A DNA stretch of 64,000 bases from Paenibacillus ihbetae (GTDB lineage: Bacteria; Bacillota; Bacilli; Paenibacillales; Paenibacillaceae), in contig NZ_CP016809.1 in assembly GCF_002741055.1 (NCBI RefSeq), positions 2,502,501 through 2,566,500 of the forward strand, given 5' to 3'. Both the position numbers and the translations under genes were made by a program. Below, in pieces: positions 10,794 to 38,430 of the stretch (within the stretch, counting starts at the first letter, position 1; the number at the start of each line of letters is the position of its first letter). Below the pieces are notes generated by a model, which made no database searches, was not told the origin of the DNA, and saw only the letters and a list, made by a program, of their open reading frames with translations.

Positions 10794-10865
10794 TAAGCAG
10801 CAATAATACGCCGAGAGCTGCATAAGGGCGTGACCCTTACAGCTTGTCCGTCGCTGCCGCTGTAT

Positions 10866-10931
10866 CCCGTAGTCCAATCATTTCCGGTGATCGGGTAGAA
10901 ACATGCAGGCCAATCCCTGCACATATACGAG
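10866..10931 (-). promoter_or_regulatory. Purine (guanine-class) riboswitch aptamer
   Basis: The minus strand shows the whole three-way junction. P1 is CTCGT/ACGGG. P2 is TGCAGG/CCTGCA with a GATTGG loop. The joining segment is GTTTCTACC. P3 is CGATCA/TGATTG with the loop CCGGAAA. The 3' joining segment is GGACTAC. The C in GACTA corresponds to the specificity base C74, which selects guanine (and xanthine/hypoxanthine) rather than adenine. Placement ahead of xpt-pbuX is the classic one. Confidence 0.96.
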
Positions 10932-11214
10932 AACACGTATGTTCAGCAAGATGCAGCATTCGATTCCAGCCGCTCCCGGATTCAATCTCATAGGGGAATT
11001 TAACCATTCCGCCCTATTGATCGCCCATTGAGAGCCGCCCTCTGAATGTCTGCAAAATCTGCATGGTAAGATAAAATCAATCTCATGCTTACGTGTAAAT
11101 ATGATTATTCCGAATGAATGAAGTATAACGCAACTGGCATGAAAAAATAAAGTGAAAATTTACGGAAATCGAATTCAGAAGAGCCAAGAGCCTGTACCAT
11201 GGACATTCGAACAC

Positions 11215-31164: not shown

Positions 31165-32670
31165 TTAGCGAATCGTGACCACCTTCGTCTCGCTTTTCAT
31201 ATAGTTCACGAACATGCCTGCAAAGTCCGGGTCCCACTGGGTCCCCTTCCCCTCCTCCAGTATATTCAGCGCATCCGCCGATCGCATGCCGCTGCGGTAG
31301 GGCCGATCCGACGTCATCGCATCATACGCATCAGCGACGGCAATAATCCGCCCGAACAGCGGGATATCCTTGCCCTTCAGGCCATCCGGATAACCGCACC
31401 CGTCGTATCGTTCGTGATGGGACCGCACGCCTTCCAGGTAAGGAGCCATGGCGTCGGCCGGTTCAATCTGCAGCAAAATATTCTCGCCCTGCTGCGGATG
31501 CGTCTTGACCTGATCGAACTCCTCTTCCGTCAGCTTGCCTTCCTTCAGCAATATATGATCCCGCACGCCGATTTTGCCGATATCATGCAGCAGTGCCGTC
31601 TTATGCAGCAGATCGATCTCCTCCTCGCTGAGACCGGCCAGCCGGCCGATCAGAACCGAGTATTCCGCAACCCGAAGCGAATGCCCTGCCGTGTAAGGAT
31701 CCCTTGCATCGAGCGCTGCCGCGAGGGCCGCGAAGTAGCTGTCGAGAAGCTTACGGTTCCGTTCCTCGCGAACCTGAAGGCCGCGAACCATCATATTGAA
31801 GCCCGCGATCAGTGTGGAGAATTCATCGGAATATAGATTCGAGGTTTGAATAAGGCGTCCTTCTTTAATTTCGTTCATCGCCCGGTACAGCTGACGGATG
31901 GGGCGCTGTAAATCCTGGGTCAGGAGCCATGCACCGACATATGCGAATCCGACGCCAAGCAGCAGGACACCCCCTGCCCAGCCCCAATACTGCTGCGGAG
32001 CAATTTTGTTAAGTCCCTCCAGCCTAATCTGAACGGCCAGCGAGAACAGAAAGAGCGGGAACGTGCCGATGAGCATCGTGCTGAGCAAAAATTTGACGCG
32101 GATCGCCAGGAATACATGGCCCTCCAGCGAGAAATCGACGCCATGCCTCGACAGCGCCTTCCGCCGTATTCCCTTGATCAGCGGGCGAATGGCAGCAATC
32201 GTCAGGAAGAATTCGATCATGGCATGGCAGCTTGCAAGGAGAACGGCCCCAAGTGAAGCAAGCCATATGTAAAAGGCAGGAAAGCTCAGCTTCCCCTGCT
32301 CCATCATCCATATGGTCAGCAGAATGGCCGGCAACGACAGCCCAAGCAGATGGGGACCGAAGATGCGGTAGACAGCGAGGCGCGGCATACGATGCACGTG
32401 TAAATAGGCTTTTTCCAGCAAATCCAGATCCGGGTCCTCTTCTTCAAAGACGGCACGGATCGGCTTAAGCTGCGTCAGGAAGACGCTGAGCTCCGAAATG
32501 AGCATAATCATAAACGAAATGGCCAGGATGGCCATCAATCGTGCGCATTCCTCGAAGGAAATTTCCAGGGTCGTTACCAATAATACGCCGCCGACAACAA
32601 CAACAGATGCAATCGAGCCGATCATATAATTCCGAACAAGCTGTTTAAGAAATGACTTATACAGTTGCAT
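31165..32670 (-). CDS. Membrane HD-GYP domain protein (probable c-di-GMP phosphodiesterase)
   Basis: A 501-residue protein. The N-terminal half has about six helices. A HAMP-like segment (LQRPIRQLYRAMNEIKEG) follows, then an HD-GYP domain of about 190 residues. The metal-binding pair is HDIGKIG, followed by KTHPQQGENIL, HHERYDGCGYP and ADAYDAM. The GYP position reads GCGYP, so the signature is kept. HD-GYP enzymes usually degrade cyclic di-GMP, though some only bind nucleotides. GAGGCGG precedes the ATG. It is transcribed alone. Confidence 0.9.
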   Translation of the reverse strand: MQLYKSFLKQLVRNYMIGSIASVVVVGGVLLVTTLEISFEECARLMAILAISFMIMLISELSVFLTQLKPIRAVFEEEDPDLDLLEKAYLHVHRMPRLAVYRIFGPHLLGLSLPAILLTIWMMEQGKLSFPAFYIWLASLGAVLLASCHAMIEFFLTIAAIRPLIKGIRRKALSRHGVDFSLEGHVFLAIRVKFLLSTMLIGTFPLFLFSLAVQIRLEGLNKIAPQQYWGWAGGVLLLGVGFAYVGAWLLTQDLQRPIRQLYRAMNEIKEGRLIQTSNLYSDEFSTLIAGFNMMVRGLQVREERNRKLLDSYFAALAAALDARDPYTAGHSLRVAEYSVLIGRLAGLSEEEIDLLHKTALLHDIGKIGVRDHILLKEGKLTEEEFDQVKTHPQQGENILLQIEPADAMAPYLEGVRSHHERYDGCGYPDGLKGKDIPLFGRIIAVADAYDAMTSDRPYRSGMRSADALNILEEGKGTQWDPDFAGMFVNYMKSETKVVTIR

Positions 32671-32867
32671 GGTCCGCCTCTACTTTCGTAACAGAAATAA
32701 ACACCCCGTTGCAAGCCGAACATTGGTCTGCAGCATCTTTCGATAATCCTGCATAAAATAGGGATTATCATCGAATTCCGCCAAAATTATCGTTACTATG
32801 AATATCGTTGGAAATGCCAAAAAAATCAAGATCTTTAAGCGGCAATCGGCAAGATTGTTGATGAATT

Positions 32868-32896
32868 TTGCTTATCGGGCCTAGATGTGATATAAT
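32868..32896 (+). promoter_or_regulatory. Sigma-A promoter for the candidate structured RNA
   Basis: TTGCTT and a perfect TATAAT separated by 17 bp. The predicted transcription start is near 32903, well ahead of any coding region. Confidence 0.7.
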
Positions 32897-32902
32897 AATA
32901 TC

Positions 32903-33219
32903 TTGTTAGATGAAGTTTAACCCCGTAAGTTCCTCGAAATTTGATATTACATCTCAGATGAAGTAGAAAATTCCTATTTAATGACCCTAAGAGTAAGAGT
33001 TTTACGGAACGTTTTCTGATTCACACTGGAGCGGTCATCGGAGCCGCAAGGACGAAAGAGAGGCAGGGCTTTTGTTGTTTTGGAAGTAATGATTCTTGAA
33101 TAACTTCACACACGGAACCGACTGTACAGACTGCATGCGTCTGTCAGGGGTTAAATTTTATAAGCGGCGCGTTTCGCGCCGCACCAAGGGACTCGGCTGG
33201 ATAGCCGGGTCCCTTTTCC
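32903..33219 (+). ncRNA. Candidate structured RNA (leader or independent ncRNA), unidentified
   Basis: About 315 nt bounded by a sigma-A promoter and an intrinsic terminator, with no convincing coding frame. A long-range helix joins 32912-32924 (AAGTTTAACCCC) to 33147-33159 (GGGGTTAAATTT), closing a domain of about 220 nt. Inside lie hairpins such as CTG..CAGAC/GTCTG..CAG at 33122-33147 and GCGG/CCGC near 33030-33050. After the closing helix come a perfect GCGGCGCG/CGCGCCGC hairpin (33164-33182) and the terminator stem. I checked by eye for T-box, SAM, TPP, cyclic di-GMP, RNase P, tmRNA, SRP and 6S signatures and saw none. It could be an attenuated leader of the giant repeat gene or an independent RNA. 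Confidence 0.55.
33186..33219 (+). terminator. Terminator of the candidate RNA
   Basis: Stem AAGGGACTCGGC / GCCGGGTCCCTT with a six-base loop, followed by TTCCATTTT. It ends about 160 nt before the start of the repeat-protein gene. Confidence 0.82.
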
Positions 33220-33313
33220 ATTTTACCGGCATGGTTCCCCATGGCGGCTATTTTCGAACAGGTCCCTTACAACAACTGCGGCTGTTGGTCCGGTAAGCCC
33301 TGAAACATCAGTG

Positions 33314-33341
33314 ACAGCCGCCTACTCGCCTGCATAGGATA
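33314..33341 (+). promoter_or_regulatory. Possible sigma-K-type promoter for the repeat protein
   Basis: CATAGGATA fits the sigma-K -10 pattern CATAnnnTA, and an AC core lies 17 bp upstream. It sits about 40 nt before the TTG start. Such short motifs arise by chance, so this is suggestive only. Confidence 0.33.
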
Positions 33342-33378
33342 TCGGAGACGATTTAGTATCCAGAAGGAGTGTGCCGTT

Positions 33379-36300
33379 TTGAAAAAAAAGAAGAAAACCT
33401 CATCCTCCTCTACCCAGCCCTTCAGAGTCGATCCGAGTACCCGGGAGCTTGACCTGCTGGAGCGAGGTACGGGACGCAACTCCAAAAAAGAAAAGGAAGC
33501 CCGCATCCTGTCCGCGGCTTCCGTAGTGGATTCCGACGAAGACCTTGTAGGCTTAGCTGAACTGAAGCAGGAGCAAGAGAACGAACAACAGTTTGAACAG
33601 GAGATAAGGCAGGAACCGGATGAGATACAGATACAGGTCATCCACGATATTCTGGCGGAACAAAACCCGTGCAATCCACCGAGCGAAGTTTTTCCGAGCC
33701 AAGAGAAACCTGCCGATACCACATCTTTTGCAGCCATCCATGCTGAACAAGAGCAGCTGCTGGCCGATAAGGAAATGCCTGGAGTGAAGGGAGCATTCAT
33801 ATACACCGAGGATATCGGCGAATATGCGATTACCGATAGCCGAATTGCCTCCCGGGCCGTGACCGCCTCCAAAATCGCACCAGGTGCCGTTGGATCCGAA
33901 GCGCTTCAGGATTACAGCGTGAGCAGCATCCATATCACGGACGAGGCCGTTACCTCAAGCAAGATCGCCCCGCTGTCCATTACCAGCGATCACCTGATGG
34001 ACGGCTCATTATCCACTCGCAAGCTGCGCGACGGCGCGGTAAACGGAAGCAAAATCAAAGACGGGGCAATCACGGCCCAGAAGCTCGCGGATCATGCGGT
34101 CGAAGGGAATAAAATTGCCGATGGCGCCGTGACGGCCCGCCACCTGCAGCATCTGATCGTGACGACGGAGCTGCTTGACGATCAATCCGTCAGAGGCGAC
34201 AAAATTGCCTCCAGCGGTATCGAAACCCGTCATCTGGCCAATGGGGCCGTGCACAGCTCCAAGCTCGCGGACTACGCGGTCACGACAACCAAAATCCGTG
34301 ACGGCGCGATCAGCAGCGAAAAGATTGAATATGGTGCCGTTACCGGCTCTCACATCCAGCAAGGCTCCGTAGAAAGCGGGCATTTGGCACCCGGAGCGGT
34401 CACTTCCGAGCATTTAGCTTATGGTAGCGTCGGTTCTAATCAAATCGCCGAAGGCGCCGTTGGTTCAGCACATCTTCAGGCTGGTACGATCCTCTCCCGC
34501 CATATCGCGGACGGTGCGATCGGCACCGAACAGATCAGACACGGCTCCATTGGAGATGAGCAGCTCGCTTCAGGCGCCGTGGCTTCCCGGCATCTTGCCG
34601 ATTCCAGCATTACAAGCTTCAAGTTGGCCGACCAGTCTGTCCATACAGCGAAGCTGGTGGAGCAGGCCGTCACTGCCTCCAAGATCGCGGACCAAAGCAT
34701 TCTGCCGAGCAAAATTGCTAATGAAGCGGTACAAACCCGGCATTTGAGCAAAGGATCGGTAGAATCGGCCCATATTGTAGATCAAGCAATTTCGACCCAA
34801 CATCTGGCTGATCAAGCGGTGAATGCGTCACATATCGCGGAGGGCAGCCTGACGCCGAAGCATTTTGCACCGGAAAGCGTAACCGGATCCGCCATAAAGC
34901 CTAAAGCGGTCGGACCGCAGCATCTGGCTGACGGCGCCGTAGCCAGGCAGCATATTCAGCCGGAATCCATCGGCGACAAGCAGCTGGCTCCTGGCAGCGT
35001 CACCAGCAGCAAGCTGGCGCTGGGCTCTGTCGGCGGAGCGATCATTGCGCTTGATGGCGTGACTTCCGTCAATATCGCCAAACAGTCAATATTACAGCAT
35101 CACCTAGCCCAAGGCAGCGTCGGAACCAACGCTCTTCAGGAAGGAGCGGTGCGCTCGGCCCATCTGTCCGACCAAGCAATCGAAGCAAGGCACCTCAAGG
35201 CCGAAAGTGTGCAAAGCAAGGCGCTTGCGCGCGGCTCGGTCACGGCGGATAAAATTGCGGAGGGCAGCGTCACTGAATCCGCCATCGGGAATGGTGCTAT
35301 TGCCCCTCGCCATCTGGGCGATCACGCCGTCACATCGCTGAAGCTGTCGCCGGAAAGCGTATCGACCGACAAGCTTGTCGACCTTGCCGTTACTTCCTCC
35401 AAGCTTGCGGAGGGCAGCGTCACCGCAGACAAGATTGCACAGAAGGCTGTACAATCGGCCCACCTGTCCCCGGGTTCCGTATCGGGAGAGGCGATTCAGG
35501 ATCAGGCGGTTACTTCAGACAAAATTGCACCGCTGGCAGTAGAAAGCACTCATCTCGGCCTGGAATCCATCTCGGGCAAGCATATTGTGCAGGAAGCGAT
35601 TCACGGTTACCACATCAAGAAAAAATCCGTCACATTAAATCTCTTAGCGGACGAAGCTCGCACGCCGGAGATGTTGTTTAATGACGGCAGCATTCCAGGT
35701 TCCAAGCTGGGCGTCCAGTCCGTCTCGGAAGCCCATCTCTCCCCTGCATCGGTATCCGAGCAGGCGCTGAAACCAAACTCCGTGAGCGGAGACAAAATCA
35801 AGCCGCTCTCCATCAGCGCCGGGCACCTGCAGCAGGCGAGCGTCCTGTCCAACCATCTGGGGACGGACATCGTCAAATCCGAGCATATCGGGGACAGCGC
35901 CGTAACGGATCGCCATCTTGCTCCGGATTCCGTCAAAGCGCATCATATTCAGAGCTCAAGCATTGAATCGGACCATATCGCCGTTCAGGCGATTTCGGCC
36001 CGGCACCTGGCTGAACAAGCGGTAAATTCGGACCATATCGCGGAGGGCTGCCTGATACCGAAGCATTTTGCACCGGACAGCGTCACCGAATCCGCCATCG
36101 GGGACGGCGCCATAGTCCCCCGCCATCTGGGCGACCACGCCGTTACGTCGCTGAAGCTGTCGCCGGAAAGCGTATCGACCGACAAGCTTGTCGACCTTGC
36201 CGTTACCTCCTCCAAGCTTGCGGAGGGCAGCGTCACCTCAGACAAGATTGCGCAGAAGGCTGTACAATCGGCCCATCTGTCCCCGGGCTCCGTATCGGGA

Positions 36301-38430
36301 GAGGCGATCCAGGACCAGGCGGTTACTTCAGACAAAATCGCACCGCAGGCAATTGAAGGCGCTCATCTCGGCCTGGAATCCATCTCGGGCAAGCATATTG
36401 TGCAGGAAGCCATATACGGTTACCACCTGAAGAAAAAATCCATCACATTAAATCACTTAGCGGACGAAGCTCGCACGCCAGAGATGTTGTTTCATGACGG
36501 CAGCATTCCGGGTTCCAAGCTGGGCGTCCAGTCCGTCTCGGAAGCCCATCTCTCGCCTGCGTCGGTATCCGAGCAGGCGCTGAAACCAAACTCCGTAAGC
36601 GGGGACAAAATCAAGCCGCTCTCCATCAGCGCCGGGCACCTGCAGCAGGCGAGCATCCTGTCCGACCATCTGGGGGCGGACATCGTCCAATCCGAGCATA
36701 TCAGGGACAACGCCGTGACGGATCGCCATCTTGCTCCGGGTTCAGTCGGATCGCACCATATTCAAGAAATAAGCATTGCATCTTCCCATTTAGCGGAAGG
36801 AAGCATTCTTTCAGGTCATATTACAGAGGGCTCTGTAAACAGCCAGCATATCGCAGAAGGCTCTGTCGGTTCCAAACACATTGAGCTGTTCGCGATTCAG
36901 AGCCACCATCTTGCCCCTTATTCCGTTAATGCCGCCCATCTGGGGAATCTATCCGTAGGGCACGTGCATCTGCAGCCGGACAGTGTCGGCGTGGATCAAC
37001 TGCAGCCGGGTTCGGTAAGATCCCGGCAATTAGCCGAAGGTGCGGTCCTTCCCCACCACCTTCAGAAGCACTGCATCAGTACAGAGCATATCGAAGCCGG
37101 GGCGATTACGGGGGAACTCATAGCTGAAGGAACGATGACTGGAGATAAGATCGCGGACGGAGCCATTACAGGCTCGCACATCTCCGACGGTGCCATCGAG
37201 AGCAGGCATCTGGGACCGGATGCTTTCAGCGGCTTCACCCTCGCCGATGGAGCCATTGACAGTGCCAAGCTGGGAATAAAGGCAGTGACCAGCGCTCATT
37301 TGAACGACGCCGCTGTCACAGGACTCCACATTGCGCAGGGCGCCATTACAAGCACTCATGTGGCCGATGGCTCCATCGAGAGCAGACATCTCAAGCCGGA
37401 TGCTTTCAGCGGATTCACGCTTACCGATGCTTCCGTCACCGGGGAGCATATTGCCCAAGGTACTGTTACGGGCTCGCATATTGCTGAAGGGTCTCTGAGC
37501 GGGGCGCACATCGCCGAGGGGGCCATTGAGAGCAGGCATCTAAGTCCAGACGCCTTCAGCGGATTCACCCTTACCGATGCTTCCGTCACCGGGGAGCATA
37601 TTGCCCAAGGTACTGTTACGGGCTCGCATATTGCTGAAGGGTCTCTGAGCGGGGCGCACATCGCCGAGGGGGCCATTGAGAGCAGGCATCTAAGTCCAGA
37701 CGCCTTCAGCGGCTTCACACTGGCCGATGCCTCCGTCACCGGAGAGCAAATCGCTCAAGGCGCTATTACGGGCTCGCATATTGCTGAAGGGTCTCTGGGC
37801 GGGACACACATTGCCGAGGGGGCCATCGAGAGCAGGCATCTCGGACCGGACGCCTTCAGCGGCTTCACGCTAGTCGACGGTTCCGTCACCGGAGAACAAA
37901 TTGCCCAAGGCACCATTACAGGCTCGCATGTTGCTGAAGGATCTCTGGGCGGAGCGCACATCGCCGACGGAGCCATCGAGAGCAGGCATCTCGGACCGGA
38001 CGCCTTCAGCGGCTTCACGCTCGCCGATGGTTCCGTCACCGGAGAGCAAATCGCCCAAGGCGCTATTACGGGCTCGCATGTCGCTGATGGATCTCTGGGC
38101 GGAGCGCATATCGCCGAGGGGGCCATTGAGAGCGAGCATCTCGGATTTACGCCAGTGCGCGGAACGGCCGGACAGATGAAGCTCCAACAATTTGGCATGA
38201 CGCCTTTCGTGTTGAACGGTCCTGAAGCCAAAGCCGAAGTGGGGGTTCAATTCGAGGAGCCCTTTGGCGGCATCAACTATGTCATCGTAGGCATGAGCAA
38301 CAATCCCGGCTTCCAGATTTCGCTGAAATCCCAGCAAGAGGACAGTGCCGTGCTCGAGGTCGTACGTCAGCCCGGCTGCAATCTGGCCTATGGCTTCATA
38401 TCCTGGATTGCGATTGGTCCTTCCCTGTAG
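33379..38430 (+). CDS. Giant decapeptide-repeat protein (WIAG-tail-like)
   Basis: A 1683-residue protein with a basic start, a Glu/Gln-rich N-terminal 130 residues without signal peptide, then roughly 140 repeats of about ten residues of the form DGAVTSSKIA / EGSVESRHLA, and a non-repetitive C-terminal domain of about 90 residues ending SWIAIGPSL. The regular pattern of small, beta-branched and His/Lys positions suggests an elongated beta-solenoid or trimeric fibre, like phage tail fibres or spore-surface filaments. The end recalls proteins named for a WIAG tail in Paenibacillus; this is from memory. The TTG start at 33379 follows AAGGAG by about ten bases. The role is unknown; a sporulation promoter is possible. 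Confidence 0.88.
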   Translation: MKKKKKTSSSSTQPFRVDPSTRELDLLERGTGRNSKKEKEARILSAASVVDSDEDLVGLAELKQEQENEQQFEQEIRQEPDEIQIQVIHDILAEQNPCNPPSEVFPSQEKPADTTSFAAIHAEQEQLLADKEMPGVKGAFIYTEDIGEYAITDSRIASRAVTASKIAPGAVGSEALQDYSVSSIHITDEAVTSSKIAPLSITSDHLMDGSLSTRKLRDGAVNGSKIKDGAITAQKLADHAVEGNKIADGAVTARHLQHLIVTTELLDDQSVRGDKIASSGIETRHLANGAVHSSKLADYAVTTTKIRDGAISSEKIEYGAVTGSHIQQGSVESGHLAPGAVTSEHLAYGSVGSNQIAEGAVGSAHLQAGTILSRHIADGAIGTEQIRHGSIGDEQLASGAVASRHLADSSITSFKLADQSVHTAKLVEQAVTASKIADQSILPSKIANEAVQTRHLSKGSVESAHIVDQAISTQHLADQAVNASHIAEGSLTPKHFAPESVTGSAIKPKAVGPQHLADGAVARQHIQPESIGDKQLAPGSVTSSKLALGSVGGAIIALDGVTSVNIAKQSILQHHLAQGSVGTNALQEGAVRSAHLSDQAIEARHLKAESVQSKALARGSVTADKIAEGSVTESAIGNGAIAPRHLGDHAVTSLKLSPESVSTDKLVDLAVTSSKLAEGSVTADKIAQKAVQSAHLSPGSVSGEAIQDQAVTSDKIAPLAVESTHLGLESISGKHIVQEAIHGYHIKKKSVTLNLLADEARTPEMLFNDGSIPGSKLGVQSVSEAHLSPASVSEQALKPNSVSGDKIKPLSISAGHLQQASVLSNHLGTDIVKSEHIGDSAVTDRHLAPDSVKAHHIQSSSIESDHIAVQAISARHLAEQAVNSDHIAEGCLIPKHFAPDSVTESAIGDGAIVPRHLGDHAVTSLKLSPESVSTDKLVDLAVTSSKLAEGSVTSDKIAQKAVQSAHLSPGSVSGEAIQDQAVTSDKIAPQAIEGAHLGLESISGKHIVQEAIYGYHLKKKSITLNHLADEARTPEMLFHDGSIPGSKLGVQSVSEAHLSPASVSEQALKPNSVSGDKIKPLSISAGHLQQASILSDHLGADIVQSEHIRDNAVTDRHLAPGSVGSHHIQEISIASSHLAEGSILSGHITEGSVNSQHIAEGSVGSKHIELFAIQSHHLAPYSVNAAHLGNLSVGHVHLQPDSVGVDQLQPGSVRSRQLAEGAVLPHHLQKHCISTEHIEAGAITGELIAEGTMTGDKIADGAITGSHISDGAIESRHLGPDAFSGFTLADGAIDSAKLGIKAVTSAHLNDAAVTGLHIAQGAITSTHVADGSIESRHLKPDAFSGFTLTDASVTGEHIAQGTVTGSHIAEGSLSGAHIAEGAIESRHLSPDAFSGFTLTDASVTGEHIAQGTVTGSHIAEGSLSGAHIAEGAIESRHLSPDAFSGFTLADASVTGEQIAQGAITGSHIAEGSLGGTHIAEGAIESRHLGPDAFSGFTLVDGSVTGEQIAQGTITGSHVAEGSLGGAHIADGAIESRHLGPDAFSGFTLADGSVTGEQIAQGAITGSHVADGSLGGAHIAEGAIESEHLGFTPVRGTAGQMKLQQFGMTPFVLNGPEAKAEVGVQFEEPFGGINYVIVGMSNNPGFQISLKSQQEDSAVLEVVRQPGCNLAYGFISWIAIGPSL
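35281..36750. repeat. Segmental duplication (813-bp offset) inside the repeat gene
   Basis: The stretch from about 35281 to 35935 recurs from about 36094 to 36748, with few changes and an exact 813-bp offset (271 codons). Both copies carry the same interrupting segment ADEARTPEMLF. This shows a large in-frame duplication on top of the decapeptide pattern. Confidence 0.88.
37381..38130. repeat. Five 150-bp tandem repeats inside the repeat gene
   Basis: Units start at about 37381, 37531, 37681, 37831 and 37981, each coding 50 residues that include SRHLGPDAFSGFTL. Units near 37441 and 37591 are identical over at least 120 bp, so the expansion is recent. Confidence 0.92.

Follow-up and report, generated by a model that had tools for sequence, protein, structure and literature searches.

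Positions 32903-33219 of the window (the whole 64,000-nucleotide stretch of Paenibacillus ihbetae DNA that was analyzed) almost certainly hold a structured RNA encoded on the plus strand. The data support a single-copy gene for an RNA of about 315 nt, whose two ends are joined by a closing helix and which contains a three-way-junction core with a purine-rich hairpin loop. This junction is the most widely conserved part of the RNA and was overlooked in a preliminary description of the locus, which had been made from the sequence alone. Downstream on the plus strand, at 33379-38430, lies the gene of a giant repeat protein of 1683 aa with short repeats such as GSVTADKIAEGSV, and a purine riboswitch (67.4 bits) is found elsewhere in the window, at 10850-10950 on the minus strand. 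The features of the RNA locus are as follows.

32868..32896, plus strand: promoter TTGCTT, 17-nt spacer, TATAAT, with TG at 32888-32889 (from sequence)
32903..33219, plus strand: structured RNA gene, about 315 nt, homologous to BsrC, on the strand opposite to the Rfam model
32915..32924, plus strand: 5' arm of the closing helix, GUUUAACCCC (compensatory changes, minimum-energy fold)
32929..32933, plus strand: 5' arm of a second long-range helix, GUUCC, pairing with 33114-33118 (alignment, minimum-energy fold)
32968..33002, plus strand: hairpin AAAUUC(C)UAUUU / GAGUA(A)GAGUUU with a conserved ACCC in its loop (alignment; absent from the minimum-energy fold)
33001..33088, minus strand: match to Rfam BsrC (RF01410), 66.8 bits with a cut-off of 38, strand opposite to the RNA
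33014..33085, plus strand: three-way-junction core closed by P1, 33014-33019 / 33080-33085 (92-sequence alignment)
33031..33047, plus strand: P2 hairpin of the core, GCGGU / GCCGC (outer pair GC in 47, AU in 29, GU in 13)
33051..33076, plus strand: P3 hairpin GACGAAAG / CUUUUGUU with purine-rich loop AGAGGCAGGG at 33059-33068 (covariation)
33114..33118, plus strand: 3' arm of the second long-range helix, GGAAC (alignment, minimum-energy fold)
33126..33144, plus strand: small hairpin ACAGAC / GUCUGU (sequence, minimum-energy fold; variable in relatives)
33147..33156, plus strand: 3' arm of the closing helix, GGGGUUAAAU (compensatory changes, minimum-energy fold)
33164..33182, plus strand: GC hairpin GCGGCGCG-UUU-CGCGCCGC (sequence, minimum-energy fold)
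33186..33219, plus strand: intrinsic-terminator-like hairpin of 13 pairs with a short U-rich tail (terminator scan, minimum-energy fold)

The promoter claimed in the preliminary description is present as an extended −10 element, with TATAAT at 32891-32896 and the TG one base ahead of it, although the −35 element (TTGCTT, 32868-32873) agrees with the consensus at only three of six positions. Because of this poor −35 match, the RNA promoter is missing from a simple promoter scan, which returned two other promoter-like sites, compared with 1.2 in shuffled sequences. The claimed intrinsic terminator was likewise recovered, as a hairpin at 33186-33215 followed by a short U tract (TTTTCC); the scan gave two such sites, compared with 0.9 in shuffles. 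The folding energy of the 317-nt RNA is −107.3 kcal/mol (z = −5.04), and none of 100 shuffles was as low.

The outer structure was assessed in an alignment (A2) of 17 related sequences, which were picked by motifs for the arms of the closing helix and leave out the other Paenibacillus clade. The pairing percentage of this helix, 99.4% of cells with one unpaired cell, is therefore biased, and the letters in its two pairs that changed on both sides (C-G to U-A, with pairing kept) are among those that the selection motifs permitted. The preliminary description had placed the helix at 32912-32924 / 33147-33159 and proposed a check of its covariation; the pairs found lie within that range and, in this motif-selected set, include the two compensatory ones. 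In the second long-range helix, 97.6% of cells are paired, with three wobble and two unpaired cells and no both-sided change. Internal helices are present as well; the hairpin at 32968-33002 has compensatory changes in two of its 11 pairs. RNAalifold predicted the closing helix, GUUCC/GGAAC, the 32968-33002 hairpin, and the core from the 17 clade sequences. Across this structure, 99.2% of cells pair and five pairs have both-sided changes, as many as in none of 500 shuffles; the count of further pair types was equalled in 13 of 500. The minimum-energy fold keeps the closing helix (10/10 pairs), GUUCC/GGAAC (5/5), the small hairpin, the terminator, and the GC hairpin noted in the preliminary description, and contains no pair of the 32968-33002 hairpin, P1, P2, or P3.

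Comparable long-range pairing is seen by eye beyond this clade: the other Paenibacillus clade has a similar closing pair, AUCCCC/GGGGAU, and diverged Bacilli carry a pair such as AUUCUAC/GUGGAAU where the second long-range helix sits. An alignment-free test on 90 of 118 non-redundant loci, drawn from 167, showed a better fit between the two flanks (5' and 3') of the same locus than between flanks taken from different loci. For near windows, the mean residual was −2.0 kcal/mol (z = −4.5), with 22 of the 90 loci in the best tenth where nine were expected; for wide windows, z was −3.3 and 16 of 90 loci fell in the best tenth.

For the core, 92 sequences remained out of 153 extracted after a 93% identity filter (alignment A1). 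RNAalifold predicted from them a three-way junction of 19 pairs, 11 of which have both-sided changes. Standard pairs fill 95.7% of cells and 144 cells are changed on both sides, values as high as in none of 500 shuffles, and the pairing percentage drops to 32-49 when the structure is slid by one to three columns. All six pairs at 33015-33019/33080-33084 and 33022/33077 have both-sided changes, and one P3 pair occurs as UA in 43, CG in 33, and UG in 16 sequences. Most of the 92 cores were found by an exact pattern whose letters include most of the loop and of the 5' arm of P3, so the sameness of P3 and its loop in these loci is built in. A fairer figure comes from 59 loci found by R1, a model of the core built on the plus strand, and not by the pattern: 51 of them retain the loop AGAGGNAGGG, and in diverged families the P3 stem letters change with pairing kept. 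Since the minimum-energy fold has none of the core pairs, the core rests on covariation and not on predicted stability. Kissing of the purine loop with a CCC loop or CCUC stretches was considered and rejected, as by eye the Y position of the loop does not track its would-be partner. A small protein encoded in the RNA was also rejected: the longest open stretch spans 41 codons, the first of which is read as L, and the paired stem changes argue against a conserved reading frame.

The preliminary description had called the RNA unidentified and suggested a search of Rfam. A cmscan with all families gave BsrC as the sole match above cut-off at the RNA locus; the eight further matches in 32600-33500 up to E = 10 are each below their own cut-off, and raiA, OLE, and 6S are absent from all nine. 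The label "unidentified" is thus to be corrected, as the locus is that of BsrC, for which Rfam holds an 87-nt fragment modeled on the opposite strand. The name bsrC was reportedly given by Saito et al. 2009. The score lies above the curated BsrC cut-off, but the RNA and the model are on opposite strands, as wobble pairs show: among the 92 cores, 275 cells are G.U and nine A.C when read on the plus strand, and 95.7% of cells pair on the plus strand versus 80.5% if read on the minus strand, which places the RNA on the plus strand. The data support Rfam BsrC being an other-strand fragment of a Bacilli-wide RNA, of which the window locus is the Paenibacillus form. As Rfam models the opposite strand, Rfam-based annotation puts the label on the wrong one.

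A published transcript fits this assignment. RNA-seq of P. riograndensis SBR5 annotated a 322-nt "BsrC sRNA" at 688,067-687,745 on the minus strand (excerpt of PMC5670726). One genome of our survey (G1062), which we infer from coordinates to be SBR5, has an R1 match at 687,836-687,933, also on the minus strand; given this identity, the transcript lies on the strand of R1, opposite to that of Rfam. The homologous transcript starts 6 nt past a TATAAT box, and its 3' end as published lies about 40 nt ahead of a terminator-like hairpin in G1062. It is highly unlikely that the minus-strand BsrC is the functional RNA as in Rfam, with the plus strand antisense or silent. The 66.8-bit score on the minus strand speaks for that reading, as does a BsrC match opposite to the core in 14 of 14 scanned loci; against it stand the wobble-pair counts and pairing percentages given above, the position of promoter and terminator on the plus strand, and the 322-nt transcript on that strand (genome identity inferred). 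Taken together, the evidence favors the independent RNA of about 315 nt proposed at the outset: covariation in the closing helix and in the core, R1 matches in nearly the whole genus (59 of 61 genomes), gene neighbors that vary between genera, and a transcript of fitting length in a relative.

The RNA is widespread. Within the order, the BsrC model matches 278 of 296 genomes, which represent 37 of 48 genera, with one match per matching genome; within the class, R1 matches 209 of 398 genomes from 76 of 145 genera (both among the matches listed). A phylum-wide draw of 398 genomes yielded 14 R1 matches, all within the class (among the matches listed). The core DNA pattern recovered at least 119 stretches in named genomes, with Bacillus, Paenibacillus, Alkalihalobacillus, Brevibacillus, Jeotgalibacillus, Fictibacillus, Ammoniphilus, and others among the matches listed. 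Two copies are present in eight of nine Bacillus-type genomes (for example, L070/L076 and L155/L165), and three in a few genomes of the class survey (among the matches listed). One of the two copies of B. halotolerans ATCC 25096 lies between genes for 140-aa and 269-aa proteins, both on the RNA strand, which we take to be ydaG and ydaH. With family models, the 140-aa protein had only sub-cut-off oxidoreductase matches and the 269-aa protein none. A homologue at the bsrC locus, ydaG-ydaH, was thus found in this strain, and the ydaG-ydaH copy has an altered P3 stem (ACGAUUG) with an unchanged loop, GAGAGGUAGGG. The presence of the RNA in so many sampled genomes, 278 of 296 in the order and about half in the class, and in two copies in the B. 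subtilis-group genomes examined, makes a basic role likely.

Published data on the Bacillus homologues, available to us as excerpts, add several points. According to the literature, bsrC lies between ydaG and ydaH, and BSGatlas lists a second BsrC match between cspC and ydeB (excerpt of PMC8208703). B. subtilis bsrC had a ratio of 53.6 in Hfq co-immunoprecipitation, the excerpt giving no strand (PMC3574147). BsrC is made in vegetative growth and was not seen in stationary phase, and dRNA-seq of B. amyloliquefaciens detected no BsrC homologue (both from an excerpt of PMC4634765). A literature search that scarcely covers subscription journals, its sources available in part, returned no paper on the function of this RNA.

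Gene neighbors were counted at 171 of 178 loci (seven were missed by the core pattern), in stretches of up to about 8 kb and with the window locus not included. No gene is common to all 171. A gene similar to the giant repeat gene follows the RNA on its 3' side in four close relatives (L080/L217, L086/L206, L220, and L083), and no match to it was found at the other fetched loci over 3 kb. A local link between the two is possible in close relatives; the RNA as a leader of the giant repeat gene is not favored, as the RNA is kept without the gene and a terminator intervenes. CarD genes occur in 34 and CshA genes in 15 of the 171 loci, and one representative of each kind was verified, CarD and cold-shock domains by Pfam and CshA by an NCBIfam equivalog model. 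Such gene linkage can be inherited, and that of CarD is mostly from one Bacillus lineage.

Cold-shock protein (csp) genes lie within 2 kb of the RNA in 47 of the 171 loci; in 124 loci, no csp match was found in the stretch examined (up to about 8 kb). Nearly all csp matches (54 of 56) are within 2 kb, 45 of those 54 on the strand of the RNA, and in 19 of the 171 loci csp starts within 350 nt after the P3 loop. In these 19 loci, the mean best promoter score is 9.7 ahead of the RNA (8.8 when shuffled) and 8.9 between RNA and csp (8.9 when shuffled); in three of them (L276, L097, and L119) the stretch between RNA and csp scores one unit or more above shuffles as a promoter, and several contain long hairpins there. 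The window locus has no csp alongside, and the nearest of the four csp genes of its genome is about 155 kb away. The link of RNA and csp is therefore real as a pattern, though it is not universal.

Two of the csp genes of the same genome (G000:C1:2690802-2690990 and 2910512-2910700; L290 and L291) are preceded by a long leader hairpin, UUCACAUAUUGUAGAGGGUU...AAUAUGUGAAUUUUUUU, and then a U-run, with no BsrC-like core ahead of csp. Similar hairpins are found in L097, L126, L141, L236, and L276, where by eye the letters differ between genera and the pairs seem kept. Since these csp genes carry such a hairpin without the RNA, it seems to belong to csp and was rejected as the terminator of the RNA; it is possibly an undescribed csp leader or attenuator. 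In an Rfam scan of 14 neighboring loci other than L290 and L291, only the cspA model matched at csp leader hairpins, in five of the 14.

Several other functions have to be weighed against a trans-acting role in a cold-shock circuit. The RNA could be a base-pairing sRNA whose purine-rich loop and C-rich stretches pair near mRNA start sites, perhaps with Hfq, a reading that we consider doubtful. Three observations point in this direction: 51 of the 59 loci found by R1 have the same loop, heptamers rich in C (ACCTCTT, for example) are enriched in the 5' flanks (28 loci versus 2.8 expected), and B. subtilis bsrC has the Hfq ratio given above (excerpt of PMC3574147). But GUUCC is not free in the clade of the window, where it is paired with GGAAC, and the enriched heptamers resemble one Bacillus lineage (by eye, among the matches listed). 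A CsrA sponge, in which the GGA of the P2 loop and the AAGGA before P3 would titrate CsrA, is very unlikely. Most P2 loops do contain GGA, and the presence of the RNA tracks that of CsrA, with 180 of 398 genomes having both and 136 neither, a correlation that is open to shared ancestry; P2 loops without GGA exist (AAAGA and GGGG), the RNA occurs without a CsrA match in 29 of the 398 genomes, and CsrA occurs without the RNA in 53. CsrA is not an obligate partner.

Improbable, too, is a riboswitch-like aptamer that binds a ligand in control of csp and has also turned into a stand-alone gene. The conserved junction letters of the three-way junction and the 19 loci where csp starts no more than 350 nt downstream would suit an aptamer, but a riboswitch would be recognized by a fixed position before one kind of gene, whereas here the neighbors vary, no downstream gene is common to the loci, and in the window the RNA has long-range closing helices and a terminator of its own. 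We regard as extremely unlikely that the RNA acts on the ribosome by pairing with the 530 loop of 16S rRNA. This idea draws on a CCGCGG element present in 30 of the 171 loci (4.3 expected): in 23 non-redundant loci with the element, the 530 window has a median rank within the top 2% of 16S windows (33% when shuffled), and CGGCUGCUGG, found in one Paenibacillus clade that is not among the loci of this test, complements 16S 522-531. Yet 18 of the 23 loci have their top-ranked site around 1350 rather than 530, and for 70 tested of the 108 other non-redundant loci the 530 window has a median of 0.37 versus 0.35 when shuffled. As a general feature, 16S rRNA pairing is not supported. The element itself mostly sits 28-45 nt after the P3 loop, often after GUGGAA (L033, L069, L244, L252, L254, and L279), and further away in one of the 30 loci (L131); because it is palindromic, it might serve dimer formation.

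The explanation that we prefer combines a structured RNA gene with a trans-acting role in a cold-shock circuit and a place in the 5' part of csp transcripts, and as a whole we judge it about evenly balanced. Its central element is tentative, somewhat short of even: the RNA may work in trans, as a scaffold or regulator of a cold-shock/RNA-chaperone circuit, in which a small RNA-binding protein such as Csp or Hfq would most likely bind it. Where it lies directly ahead of csp, it would also form the 5' part of the csp transcript, and termination or read-through past the RNA could help to set the Csp level. The broader view of a mis-stranded class of large structured Bacilli RNAs with cold-shock proteins as partners, trans-acting RNPs in most genomes and in several families the 5' part of csp transcripts, in which one RNA would couple its own termination to the supply of Csp, is rather unlikely as stated. 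With the strand corrected, the structure described, and a link to csp, cshA, and carD genes at hand, the function can be tested in a laboratory strain.

Among known systems, the closest is BsrC (RF01410) itself, which occupies the same loci, its model matching also a B. subtilis control in addition to the genomes of the order (among the matches listed), but differs in its opposite strand, its length (87 nt versus about 315), and its one hairpin, which lacks P1 and P3. The cspA thermoregulator (RF01766) is comparable as a cold-shock leader RNA, but has no match to the window RNA up to E = 10, and in five of 14 neighboring loci its model matches stretches that include the csp gene itself. The raiA motif RNA (ModT, RF03072), known from >2,500 species of Bacillota and another phylum (excerpt of PMC11706538), is comparable as a conserved structured RNA widespread in Bacillota; it has no match at the RNA locus up to E = 10, and a search for it in the genome of the window was empty, as were the controls. 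OLE RNA, a large structured RNA of Gram-positive bacteria that is part of an RNP (excerpt of PMC9723947), is longer, at about 600 nt, and has no match at the RNA locus up to E = 10, but the RNA described here may work alike, as a large structured RNA in an RNP.
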